Below, piece by piece: positions 15,155 to 40,059 of a DNA stretch of 40,059 nucleotides. The translations under genes were made by a program, and so were the position numbers. The notes below the pieces were generated by a model, which made no database searches, was not told the origin of the DNA, and saw only the letters and a list, made by a program, of their open reading frames with translations. Source of the stretch: Clostridia bacterium. GTDB lineage: Bacteria; Bacillota; Clostridia; Peptostreptococcales; JAAYPU01. The stretch's first letter is position 1, and the number at the start of each line of letters is the position of its first letter. Location of the stretch: contig JADQBM010000035.1 of assembly GCA_016278615.1 (NCBI GenBank), positions 1 to 40,059 of the forward strand. Reading direction: 5' to 3'.

Positions 15155-16060
15155 ATGAAAAAACTTCTTTTATGCTTAGTTCTGACCATTACCCTGATTT
15201 ACTTTAGTGGATGTACCACAAAAATTATAGAGGATTCAAAACCGAACATTGCAGTTTCCATCATACCCCAGGAATCTTTTGTGAAAGCAGTGGGAGGCGA
15301 CTTGGTCCATGTCACTACTATGATTCCACCAGGGAATAGCCCAACAAATTATCAGCCTACACCTATGCAAATAATTGATTTTAGTGAAGCTGATTTGTAT
15401 TTTACAATAGGTGTACCTGCAGAACAAGCTAATATTCTTCCAAAGGCATTGGACCTGAATAAAGACATAAAAATTGTTTCGTTAGCTGATAAAACAGCTG
15501 CCGTTTATCCCCATCGGGTCTTAACAGAGGAAGATTCAGATGAAGAAGGTCCTCATACCAGCCATACTCATGTTGGTACAGACCCTCACATTTGGCTCTC
15601 CCCTAAGCGTGTTATGGTTATGATTGATGCCATTAAAGATGAATTGATTTTATTAGATTCTGAAAACAAATCCATTTATGAAAAAAATGCTGCAGACTAC
15701 ATCGCCCAACTTAAATCAGTTGATAATGAAATTGTAAAAGCATTAAGCAATCTTAATCAAAAATCTTTTATTATCTACCACCCCGCTTTCGGATATTTTG
15801 CCGATGATTATGGCCTTGAAATGGTTACCATAGAAGCGGATGGTAAAGAAACCACTTTAAAACGAATTCAAGATGTTATTAACTATGCGAGAAGTGAAAA
15901 TATAAAAGTTGTTTTTTATCAAGAAGAATTTGATGGCCATCAAGCGGAAATCATTGCAAATGAAATTGGCGGCGCAACAATCCAGGTCGCTCCATTATCT
16001 CCTGATTACATAGAAAATTTAAAGTCCATAACAGATACTTTTAAAGAAGTTCTGCAATGA
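15155..16060 (+). CDS. ZnuA-like metal ABC transporter substrate-binding lipoprotein (orphan)
   Basis: A protein of 301 residues with a lipoprotein signal (MKKLLLCLVLTITLIYFSGC; lipobox FSGC, Cys20). It belongs to the cluster 9 (ZnuA/PsaA) family: 'VVFYQEEFDGHQAEIIANE' and 'VAPLSPDYIENL' near the end, an acidic/His-rich loop 'EEDSDEEGPHTSHTHVGTD', then 'DPHIWLSP', and 'YHPAFGYFADDYGLEM'. The first canonical ligand loop (xDPHxYEPTP) reads GNSPTNYQPTP, so the first His is replaced; this variant also occurs in a subgroup of the family. No ATPase or permease gene is adjacent. Zn or Mn is the likely ligand. It shares a transcript with the upstream prenyltransferase gene. Confidence 0.88.
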   Translation: MKKLLLCLVLTITLIYFSGCTTKIIEDSKPNIAVSIIPQESFVKAVGGDLVHVTTMIPPGNSPTNYQPTPMQIIDFSEADLYFTIGVPAEQANILPKALDLNKDIKIVSLADKTAAVYPHRVLTEEDSDEEGPHTSHTHVGTDPHIWLSPKRVMVMIDAIKDELILLDSENKSIYEKNAADYIAQLKSVDNEIVKALSNLNQKSFIIYHPAFGYFADDYGLEMVTIEADGKETTLKRIQDVINYARSENIKVVFYQEEFDGHQAEIIANEIGGATIQVAPLSPDYIENLKSITDTFKEVLQ

Positions 16061-16248
16061 AGTGAGCCCCATCAGTGGGAGGTTCAAACTCTCCACTGAT
16101 GGCAAGACGAACAACATGGGCGAAGCCCATTCCATCACAGTTGTGATACTGTCCGTTTTACCATTACAGCTAAAGCTGTGGTAATTTAGCAGCTCTTGAT
16201 CTCTCCACCTATAGAGGCGGGAGTCTTAGAGCTGTTTAATGAGATAAA
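16061..16248 (-). ncRNA. Structured RNA-like element, copy 1 (HEARO/OMEGA-like candidate)
   Basis: It fills the whole gap between the ZnuA-like gene and uvrA. Read on the minus strand it begins TTTATCTCATTAAACAGCTC. Its parts are a closing stem CAGCTCT/AGAGCTG (16228-16234 with 16190-16196) enclosing an inner hairpin with loop CTAT; a variable hairpin ACC-ACAGC-TTTA-GCTGT-aat-GGT (16160-16182); the motif AAAACGGACAG (16149-16159); a stem ATCACA/TGTGAT; a hairpin ATGGGC-TTC-GCCCAT (16116-16130); and a long terminal hairpin CCATCAGTGG/CCACTGATGG (16069-16102). A second copy at 39937 shares 63 of the first 66 positions and differs in the variable hairpin. There is no open frame. The length (188) and layout resemble HEARO/IscB-type omega RNAs or IS605-type ends; no alignment was possible. 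Confidence 0.6.
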
Positions 16249-16253
16249 GCAGT

Positions 16254-19139
16254 TTAACCAATATCATTTTTTATAACAGACACGCCAGATTCTTCAGCAT
16301 GAGAATGTTTCTTTAACACCTTTTCAAGGAATTGTCCTGTATAGGAAGCTTCACACGCCGTTATTTCTTCTGGCGTTCCTTTTGCAATCACAGTGCCTCC
16401 TCTATAGCCGCCATCAGGGCCTAAATCAATGATATAATCGCTCACTTTTATAACATCTAAATTATGTTCTATAACAATAACTGTATTGCCACCTTCTACT
16501 AATTTATCCAAGACCGAAATAAGCTTATTCACATCTTCGAAATGCAAACCCGTTGTAGGCTCATCTAAGATATAAAGCGTCTTCCCTGTGCTTCTTTTAC
16601 TCAATTCAGATGCTAATTTTATTCTTTGTGCTTCTCCACCAGAAAGTTGAGTGGATGGCTGTCCAAGTCTGATATAGCCCAATCCCACCTCGAAAAGTGT
16701 TTGCAGCTTTCTGGTAATAACAGGTATGTTTTTAAAAAAATCCAAAGCTTCTTCAACAGTCATATCAAGGACTTCATAGATGTTCTTACCTTTGTACTTA
16801 ACTTCTAAGGTCTCTCGATTATACCTCTTTCCTTTACAGACTTCACATGGTACATAAACATCTGGAAGAAAGTGCATTTCAATTTTTATAATACCATCCC
16901 CACTGCAGGCTTCACAACGTCCACCTTTAACATTAAAACTAAACCGTCCTTTGCTGTACCCTCTCATCTTTGATTCAGGCAGCTGCGTAAACAAGTCGCG
17001 AATATGTGTAAATACGCCAGTATAGGTGGCTGGATTGGATCGTGGCGTTCTACCAATAGGAGATTGGTCGATATCAACAATTTTATCAATGTGCTCAACA
17101 CCTTCAATGGACTCATGTTTTCCCGGTCTCATTTTAGATCGATTGATTGTAGCCGCCAAACTTTTATAAAGAATCTCGTTAACCAAACTACTCTTCCCTG
17201 AACCCGATACACCTGTTACACAAGTGAAAACACCTAAGGGGAAATCCACTTGAATGTCTTTAAGGTTATTCTCCTGAGCCCCTTTAATTGTAATCTGTTT
17301 TCCGTTGGGTTTTCTCCGCTCTTGTGGTATGTTTACTATCCTATCGCCTCTTAAATATTGCCCTGTGATGGATTCTTTACATGCTTTGATTTCTTCTATG
17401 GTTCCTTCAGCAATAACCTCTCCACCATGAGCCCCCGCACCTAACCCCATATCAATAACATGATCTGATGCATACATGGTATCCTCATCATGTTCAACAA
17501 TAAGAAGTGTATTCCCTAAATCCGTAAGGTTTCTTAAAGTTTTCAACAATTTTTCATTATCCTTCTGGTGAAGTCCTATGCTGGGCTCATCCAGTATATA
17601 CAACACACCTACCAGTTTTGATCCTATTTGCGTCGCCAATCTAATCCTCTGAGATTCCCCACCTGATAAAGTCCCCGACGAGCGAGACAAAGTCAGATAG
17701 TCCAATCCCACATCCACTAAAAACTCTAATCTGCTTCTAATTTCTTTGATAATTTGATAGGCAATAAGTTGCTGTTTTTCAGTGAGTATCAATCGGTCTA
17801 TAAAGATCAGTGACTCTCGAACAGACATATCTGCAAATTTTGAGATGTCAATATCCCCTATGGTTACAGCTAATACTTGCGGCTTTAATCGCCTTCCTGA
17901 GCATTCATTACAGGCTTTCAAGCTCATGAAGTCTTCAATCTTTCCTCTGATGTAATCGGAATTTGTTTCTCTATATCTTCTCTCAAGATTGTTTACAACG
18001 CCCTCAAAAGCCTGATTTACAAAAGATTTATATCCACCGCCCTTGCTTTCATAGTAATATTTGAGTTTCTTTTCTTTTGTACCAAAGAGGAGCTCCTGAA
18101 TAAACTTCTGAGGCAAATTTTCAACAGGTTCCTCTAAATTAACCTTATGGGCTTCTGCCAAAGAGGAAATTATTCTATGATAGTAACCCCCTTCCTCCAT
18201 AGAAGAAAAAATCGTACCCAATGCCCCTCCGTTAATACTGAGCCGTTTATCTGTAATCACCAATTCAGGATCTATTTTTTGAATAAAGCCTAAACCATTA
18301 CATTCAGTGCAAGCACCAAAGGGACTGTTAAAAGAAAACATTCTTGGTTCCAATTCCTCGATACTAATTCCGTGTTCAGGACAGGCAAATTTTGTGCTAA
18401 AAAGCAAGTCCTCTTCAGCTTGTATCTTATTAATGATAACCAATCCTTCTGCATGATTTAGAGCCGTTTCAATTGAATCCGTCAACCGGGTAGCAATACC
18501 TTCTTTAACTATAATTCTATCCACTACAATTTCTATAGTATGTTTAAAGGTTTTTTCCAGTTTGATTTCTTCCTCATTGATATCATAAATTTCGCCGTCA
18601 ATCCTGACTCTTGTGAAGCCCTCTTTCCTTACACGGGCCAGAACCTTTTCGTGCTCACCCTTACGTCCTCTGACAACTGGAGAAAGTATCTGAATCCTTG
18701 TTCCTTCATCTAACTCCAATACTTTATCAACAATTTGGTCAACTGTTTGCTGTGTTATCTCTCTTCCACAAACAGGACAATGGGGTATACCAATTCGAGC
18801 ATACATAAGGCGTAGATAGTCATATATCTCAGTAACAGTTCCCACCGTGGAACGAGGATTCTTATTGGTGGTTTTTTGGTCAATAGAAATAGCAGGTGAA
18901 AGTCCCTCTATATATTCTACATTGGGCTTTTCCATTTGCCCTAAAAACTGTCGTGCATAAGCCGAAAGACTTTCTACATATCTTCTCTGCCCCTCTGCAT
19001 AAATGGTATCAAAGGCCAAAGAAGATTTTCCCGAGCCACTAAGCCCAGTAATAACCACCAGTTTATCCCTTGGGATTCTTACATCAATATTCTTCAAATT
19101 ATGCTCTTTTGCACCTTTTATATATATATCTTTAGCCAT
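16254..19139 (-). CDS. uvrA: Excinuclease ABC subunit A
   Basis: A protein of 961 residues, full length. It contains two ABC ATPase modules: Walker A '[17 protein letters not shown]' (about 31-47) and '[16 protein letters not shown]' in the second half, with signatures '[20 protein letters not shown]' and '[18 protein letters not shown]'. Zinc-finger cysteines are seen in 'CPVCG', 'CTECNGLGF', 'CNECSGRRL', '[14 protein letters not shown]' and '[10 protein letters not shown]'. It detects DNA damage with UvrB in nucleotide excision repair. It is transcribed after uvrB from the SOS-type promoter near 21491-21529. Its stop codon lies immediately before the structured element at 16061-16248. Confidence 0.98.
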
Positions 19140-23730: not shown

Positions 23731-23804
23731 GCGGGTGTAGCTTAATGGTAAAGCGTCGGCTTCCCAAGCCGGTAACGTGGGTTCGATTCCCATCATCCGC
23801 TCCA
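23731..23804 (+). tRNA. tRNA-Gly (anticodon CCC)
   Basis: Complete cloverleaf with encoded CCA. The acceptor stem is GCGGGTG/CATCCGC, the D arm GCTT..AAGC, and the anticodon stem TCGGC/GCCGG around the loop TTCCCAA (anticodon CCC at 23763-23765). The T arm is GTGGG-TTCGATT-CCCAT, and the discriminator is T. A run of T (23805-23813) follows directly and terminates transcription. It is a single-gene unit with its own promoter, lying between two minus-strand genes. It reads GGG codons, a rare codon class in low-GC genomes. Confidence 0.95.
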
Positions 23805-39936: not shown

Positions 39937-40059
39937 TTTATCTCATTAAACAGCTCTAAGACTCCCACCTCTATAGGTGACGAGATCAAGAGCTGCTAAA
40001 TTCTAAAGTTGCCTTTTTGCCCCAAGCTTGCTTGGCAAGGCAAAACGGACAGCAGTGAG
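39937..40059 (+). ncRNA. Structured RNA-like element, copy 2 (cut by window end)
   Basis: Positions 39937-40002 match the start of copy 1 (minus strand 16248 down to 16183) at 63 of 66 positions. Then comes a different, longer hairpin (40003-40041; GCC-TTTT-TGCC..AAGC-TT-GCTT.GGCA-AGGC) in the same slot, then the shared AAAACGGACAG (40042-40052) before the window ends. In the inner stem a G-U pair of copy 1 is an A-U pair here. The 3' part, and any linked gene, lies beyond the window. Confidence 0.6.

Follow-up and report, generated by a model that had tools for sequence, protein, structure and literature searches.

A dispersed hairpin-ended element of Clostridia, best read as a non-autonomous IS200/IS605-like mobile element

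Using a combination of covariance-model searches, comparison of copies and alignment of orthologous sites, our work here finds that a hairpin-packed stretch of clostridial DNA belongs to a family whose copies are scattered over several genomes, have sharply defined ends and lie 3′ of an AATGAAG-like site; across an order, compensatory changes in relatives preserve the end hairpins. The most plausible reading is that of a non-autonomous element of IS200/IS605-like, single-strand type, and this family of hairpin elements, which was found in one order, is apparently not catalogued. With moderate confidence, we further propose that it is a miniature mobile element moved as single-stranded DNA by a Y1 (HUH) enzyme of the IS200/IS605–REP group acting in trans. 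The copy that led to the family (L001) lies in the window, by which we mean the whole 40,059-nt stretch analysed, contig C84 of the host genome (G000; 3.5 Mb, 128 contigs).

The window copy is an extended form of 185 nt at 16063–16247 on the plus strand, as delimited by its covariance-model match (16056–16247, plus strand, E 2.3e-16), the other copies and the empty sites. It follows directly on the target AATGAAG (16056–16062, plus strand), within which the ZnuA-like reading frame (15155–16060, plus strand, 301 aa) has its TGA stop at 16058–16060; a uvrA-like frame lies at 16254–19139 on the minus strand, both putative names being those of the preliminary description. On the plus strand, the element comprises the LE hairpin CCATCAGTGG...CCACTGATGG (16069–16102; helices 1 and 2 of the predicted fold), a middle module of hairpins around ATGGGCGAAGCCCAT, ATCACAGTTGTGAT and TTACC..GGTAA (16115–16182), recognized from copies, BLAST pieces and the predicted fold, the RE hairpin TTTAGCAGCTCT...AGAGCTGTTTAA with an inner hairpin (16185–16239; predicted helices 4–7), and the 3′ terminus GATAA (16243–16247), which is conserved in most copies. 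Because an A mostly comes after GATAA, the right end is uncertain by at least one base. The middle measures about 7 nt in the usual form and is about 60 nt longer in the window copy, with further hairpins; BLAST pieces 2–60 and 129–194 of the query flank this module. The 196 nt around the copy fold with a z of −6.25 on the minus and −5.54 on the plus strand, none of 200 dinucleotide shuffles was as stable on either strand, and the list of open reading frames contains none of at least 80 aa within the copy, bearing out the preliminary description of a free-standing, hairpin-packed element that lacks a reading frame. The location given there also stands, while its limits of 16061–16248 give way to 16063–16247 for the element proper.

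A BLAST search of the host genome with the window copy returned 46 pieces among the 40 of 49 candidates scored, which correspond to 29 places; because four LE-only and four RE-only pieces at contig ends may belong together as halves of single copies, we put the copy number at 25–29, so that further genomic copies do exist. The usual copy, about 130 nt long, consists of AATGAAG, TGAGNC, the LE hairpin, a short middle, the longer RE hairpin and TTTAATGAGATAA. A second copy in the window (39938–40059, minus strand), identified by BLAST and the covariance model (match 39938–40056, minus strand, E 3.8e-17), comprises the RE together with a portion of another type of middle module and is truncated by the contig end; the blocks that it had been said to share with the first copy are confirmed by the two model matches. 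Outside both window copies, the best match in 240 kb of the host genome has an E of 0.46. The middle of the second copy is common to a second, larger repeat family built of GTGGC..GCCAC, GGAACCC..GGTTCCC, CGACTCGCTACGCTC and ..ATAATAGAAAATCGATATTTCCTATTAT with optional inserted hairpin modules, which occurs at host loci L048–L054 and L068–L070 and at 40015–40059 of the window. Its CTGTCCGTTTT..GCAAGCTTGGGG module is also the middle of long copies of the family studied here. Long copies may hide a transposase gene in assembly gaps.

Host copies with a visible LE follow AATGAAG in 23 of 25 cases and AATAAAG in the other two. The element runs from AATGAAG/TGAG.. on the left to ..GAGATAA on the right and has no terminal inverted repeats; nor is there a regular target site duplication, as the left AATGAAG and the right GATAA plus variable letters differ in most copies, with L039 and L125, which show the same 6 nt on both sides, as the exceptions. 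Copies come behind gene ends on the plus strand; the preliminary description had used the minus strand. For gene-end counts we relied on 24 LE-visible host copies, a set that lacks the deleted copy L043, which the search missed, and from which two chance matches within L011 and L025 were removed. The stop of a long reading frame (301 codons at the window copy) falls within AATGA in eight of them (L001, L002, L004, L015, L021, L037, L038 and L039), L003 and L022 have a TAA two bases upstream, and at L028 and L029 the frame runs into the element and stops there at a TGA; 12 of the 24 are no more than 7 nt from a gene end. Five copies (L005, L006, L008, L013 and L014) sit directly 3′ of TATAATGA, and at L037 and L039 a same-strand reading frame begins within 6 nt downstream of the element. 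In a 240-kb background sample, with genes called by a simple longest-frame rule, AATGA outside coding DNA held a gene stop in 14 of 241 instances and AATGAAG in 3 of 28, proportions that the eight stop-bearing copies exceed (P 4e-5 and 0.003, respectively). As copies at gene ends outnumber what target supply would predict, a further factor may be at work alongside the target.

Comparison with empty orthologous sites establishes that the element inserts 3′ of a site resembling AATGAAG and that the gene end is older than the insertion. In the sister-genus comparison (ten aligned pairs at 70–83% DNA identity, with the right boundary not fixed to the base), the element is absent from the orthologues of L001, L005, L013, L021, L028 and L037; for four of these loci (L001, L021, L028 and L037), the element-free orthologue stops at the same codon as the host gene. 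The empty site of the window copy reads GGAATAAAG, in an orthologue (L194) that ends at the same codon; in its second-genus match, L193, the gene end is not comparable. The empty site of L013 keeps TATGGTATAAT, that of L021 was found in two genera, that of L028 reads CAATGAAAT, where the relative's TAA corresponds to the TGA given by the element, and that of L037 reads GGAATGAAG, with CAATAA in the other genus. At L015, the orthologue stops one residue sooner and the downstream DNA is not comparable. The target letters at the empty sites are AATGAAG (L186, L149), AATAAAG (L194) and AATGAAA (L188), with other letters at L182, L184 and L190.

Two Clostridia MAGs, G061 and G062, provide a further empty site: G061 reads CTCAAATGAAG followed directly by TAGAGG where G062 carries a form of about 50 nt, and three other comparisons between the two (L127, L122 and L109) are not clean empty sites. 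At L110, three A's at the right end are without explanation and count against our reading as single-stranded DNA transposition. Hybrid joints between GGGAGTTTCAGA and GGGAGTCTTAGA make it more likely that the ~50-nt form in these two genomes arose by deletion from the ~130-nt form than that it is the primary unit. In G061 we also noticed the apparent halves of one copy (L112 and L115) adjoining TGTGAATG / CATTCACA ends, as though an insertion sequence had interrupted it.

Sequence searches would make the family appear rare, given the few genomes matched. Across 60 genomes comprising the host and its relatives, clear, diverged copies occur in the family-mate G001 (the same genome as G060, Anaerovorax MAG JAENZQ) and one short match in each of two others; the host was the sole match to the LE pattern (up to 3 mismatches) among 391 genomes drawn from the class; an exact-pattern scan of a one-genome-per-species collection found eight stretches, four in JAENZQ, one each in G061 and G062 and two chance-like; and in 60 genomes around and including G062, matches were confined to G062 and G061. 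Four candidates with only a short matching stretch were dropped, namely the weak matches L073 and L074 from the scan of relatives and, from the exact-pattern scan, L102 of an archaeal MAG and L103 of Pleionea; L073 (G041) is itself an array of ATTCGAATTTAGACAGACTGGAATTTAAAG repeats with differing spacers, CRISPR-like in appearance. The covariance model, built from 21 copies (16 from the host, four from G001 and one from G061), says otherwise: at E ≤ 0.001 it matched 20 of 393 genomes of the order, 18 of them besides the host and G001, while G002, the third genus of the family, gave no match. Twelve of the 18 have two to six matches among the best candidates scored, at most eight per genome, and among the matches listed two are partial and the others cover model positions 1–130. 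One of the 18 is represented solely by L226, a doubtful match that looks unrelated in sequence and is kept in the counts. Two of 54 order-level matches (two of the 54 being from G001) overlap a called reading frame; these opposite-strand frames have 68 and 69 codons. Several copies also show additional hairpins: L255, L257, L258 and L263 hold another small hairpin sequence inside the LE or RE hairpins, as if nested (..GTAGATAACCCAA..TTTGATTTGGTGTTAGTCACTTAGTTTG.. in L255, L258 and L263, a variant in L257), and the two G498 copies L254 and L259 have an extra CACCCGCGGGCAC hairpin in their LE loops.

The covariation among copies that the preliminary description had proposed to look for is evident at the order level, where 66 model matches gave 64 distinct rows, one being a reverse-strand match of L109 and two being partial. 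Changes on both sides were seen in 35 of 37 pairs, and the covariation measure was 0.510, against 0.195 in shuffles and 0.053–0.128 in slid controls. Of 2282 pair cells in the 64 rows, 90.4% are paired vs 71.8% in shuffles and 37–47% in slid controls. The figure of 90.4% is biased upward, since the rows had been aligned with the covariance model itself, for which pairs had been predicted on the plus strand. When only the 21 close copies were given to RNAalifold, three pairs showed double change. Helix 3, which joins the RE terminus to the segment 5′ of the RE hairpin foot, has 88.2% of its cells paired and double change in all five pairs, and could also be the plain base of the RE hairpin. Among 16 settled copies in the host, substitutions affect 3.7% of paired and 3.2% of unpaired positions. 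We take these data to mean that active lineages maintain the fold among themselves and that copies, once settled, drift; the similar rates at paired and unpaired positions agree with selection acting on mobility, not on individual copies.

Database searches place the element in no known family. Within the window, the only Rfam match over cut-off is a tRNA, a tRNA-Gly (CCC) gene at 23731–23804; a permissive search of 15900–16400 (E up to 10) gave seven matches, the best being RT-11 at 18.1 bits against a cut-off of 143.5. RF02033 was not among the seven, and the suggested identity as a HEARO/IscB omega RNA is thus not upheld. Rfam release 15 likewise gave no match over cut-off at 18 order-level loci, the phage, plasmid and viral-contig collections searched gave none to the window copy or to single order-level copies, and the literature searched, including a text search for five element oligomers, held no description of the family in the accessible portions (PMC7290912, PMC6006769, PMC8266576). 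For the enzyme, we turned to Y1_Tnp genes (PF01797), of which the host has six, JAENZQ seven and G061 and G062 one each. In the stretches of surrounding DNA that were examined, LE or RE was found at none of these genes, and the best covariance-model match there had an E of 0.59; 27 nt of the element middle upstream of L181 (E 0.01–0.016) were rejected as a copy, as there is no element around the match. By eye, most Y1 genes have other repeats at one or both ends, with none seen at the truncated L178. The six host genes, of RAYT-like size, lie at L056–L067 on contigs C53, C40, C77, C14, C109 and C101, most of them near a repeat of their own such as GGACAACCGCAAGGGTCGTCCCTAC at C109.

Several other explanations have to be weighed against this background. 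We regard it as unlikely that the family is a REP/REPIN-like repeat moved by a host RAYT (TnpA-REP) gene: its copies are chromosomal and intergenic, the phage and plasmid collections searched gave no match, and RAYT-like-size Y1 genes are present in the host, G001, G061 and G062 alike, yet most of these genes carry another repeat and none has LE or RE, and the element, at about 130 nt with two unlike hairpins, has no GTAG tag. A cis-regulatory or small RNA, such as an intercistronic or 3′-end stability element retained at gene ends for the benefit of the host, is a rather less promising candidate. It would account for the strong fold of the window copy, for gene-end copies beyond target supply, for those directly behind TATAATGA and for the frames starting close behind L037 and L039. 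GU also exceeds AC on the plus strand, by 15 to 5 wobble-type events in host copies and by 86 to 13 cells (22 to 9 by column) in alignment A1, where GU is overcounted because the plus strand was used to choose the pairs; at the order level, however, the figures are just 129 and 82. Moreover, in settled copies, pairing makes little difference to the mutation rate of a position, and the genes flanking the 54 order-level matches are sense/sense in 20 and antisense/antisense in 14 cases (others mixed or unknown), so the sense bias is not family-wide.

The family described here shares with IS605/TnpB elements a hairpin at either end, the occurrence of copies lacking a gene and a target in the left flank. 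We nevertheless think it improbable that the element is an ends-only remnant of a TnpB/IscB transposon, its RE being the 3′ part of an omega RNA and maybe still a nuclease guide, given that TnpB (PF07282) has no match in the host, that the Rfam searches of the window and the 18 order-level loci yielded no such RNA over cut-off, and that LE and RE in the loci scanned lie 42–184 nt apart, with no pair enclosing a gene. Spread via an RNA intermediate, as a bacterial SINE-like element, appears highly improbable: the conserved folded strand would agree with it, as would the A that comes after GATAA in 16 of 21 host copies with GATAA and after GATAA or its equivalent in 42 of 46 matches where it can be located, but this A may be part of the element or target.

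We therefore return to single-stranded DNA as the form in which the element would travel. A Y1 (HUH) enzyme of the IS200/IS605–REP group, supplied in trans, would bind the LE and RE hairpins and make two top-strand cuts, a left one behind the target and a right one behind GATAA, and the strand would then be peeled out and pasted behind another AATGAAG. The window copy would have arisen in this way at the ZnuA-like stop codon and has an additional hairpin module in its middle. A stop codon (..AATGA) or the end of a −10 box (TATAATGA) can be contained in AATGAAG; an insertion there would therefore do little harm, and copies would persist at gene ends and promoter ends. A more tentative idea is that of a long-lived, gene-less hairpin lineage across the order that borrows its enzyme in trans, has tuned its target to stop codons and −10 boxes, which would make insertion at gene boundaries harmless, and exchanges extra hairpin modules with other repeat families. 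The family offers a ready covariance model for annotation, based on compensatory change in many genera of one order, as well as a natural test of two questions: whether single-strand transposases act on elements not encoded beside them, and how genes are spared by the choice of target. It further cautions that strong covariation need not imply a functional RNA, since mobility alone may maintain pairing.

In its build, the element is most like the ends-only elements of IS200/IS605 (PATEs), the preliminary description's alternative of IS605-type ends being supported by the hairpin ends, the fixed left target, the lack of inverted repeats and of regular duplications, and the covariation of the right terminus with the segment 5′ of the RE hairpin, all of them marks of single-strand transposition in IS200/IS605. 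Like PATEs, it has no inverted-repeat termini, a hairpin near each end and no gene, inserts 3′ of a short fixed target, and has an RE terminus complementary to the segment 5′ of the RE hairpin. According to the accessible parts of PMC6006769 and PMC8266576, a right-end guide 5′ of the RE hairpin pairs with the RE terminus in IS200/IS605 and a left-end guide with the target; helix 3 of the element has the former pairing, and for the latter a CTT faces AAG in 24 of 54 matches and 10 of 19 genomes, counted without a chance control. In contrast to PATEs, the left guide is not seen in the window's subfamily, the target is about 7 nt rather than 4–5, and the hairpins exceed the 20–25 nt given for IS200/IS605 in the accessible part of PMC6006769. 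Membership in IS200/IS605 remains a candidate one because no parent IS, TnpA or other enzyme with the element's ends was found in the four genomes. REP/REPINs with their RAYTs are likewise intergenic, non-autonomous and present in many copies per chromosome, but the element consists of two different hairpins in one polarity with no GTAG tag, and the RAYTs examined are not bordered by its ends. HEARO/IscB omega RNAs (RF02033) resemble it as free-standing folded elements of similar length and differ in that it has no RF02033 match, and the lack of terminal inverted repeats and of a regular target duplication speaks against a classical DDE MITE. BOX and RUP are dispersed, modular hairpin repeats, as is the family described here.
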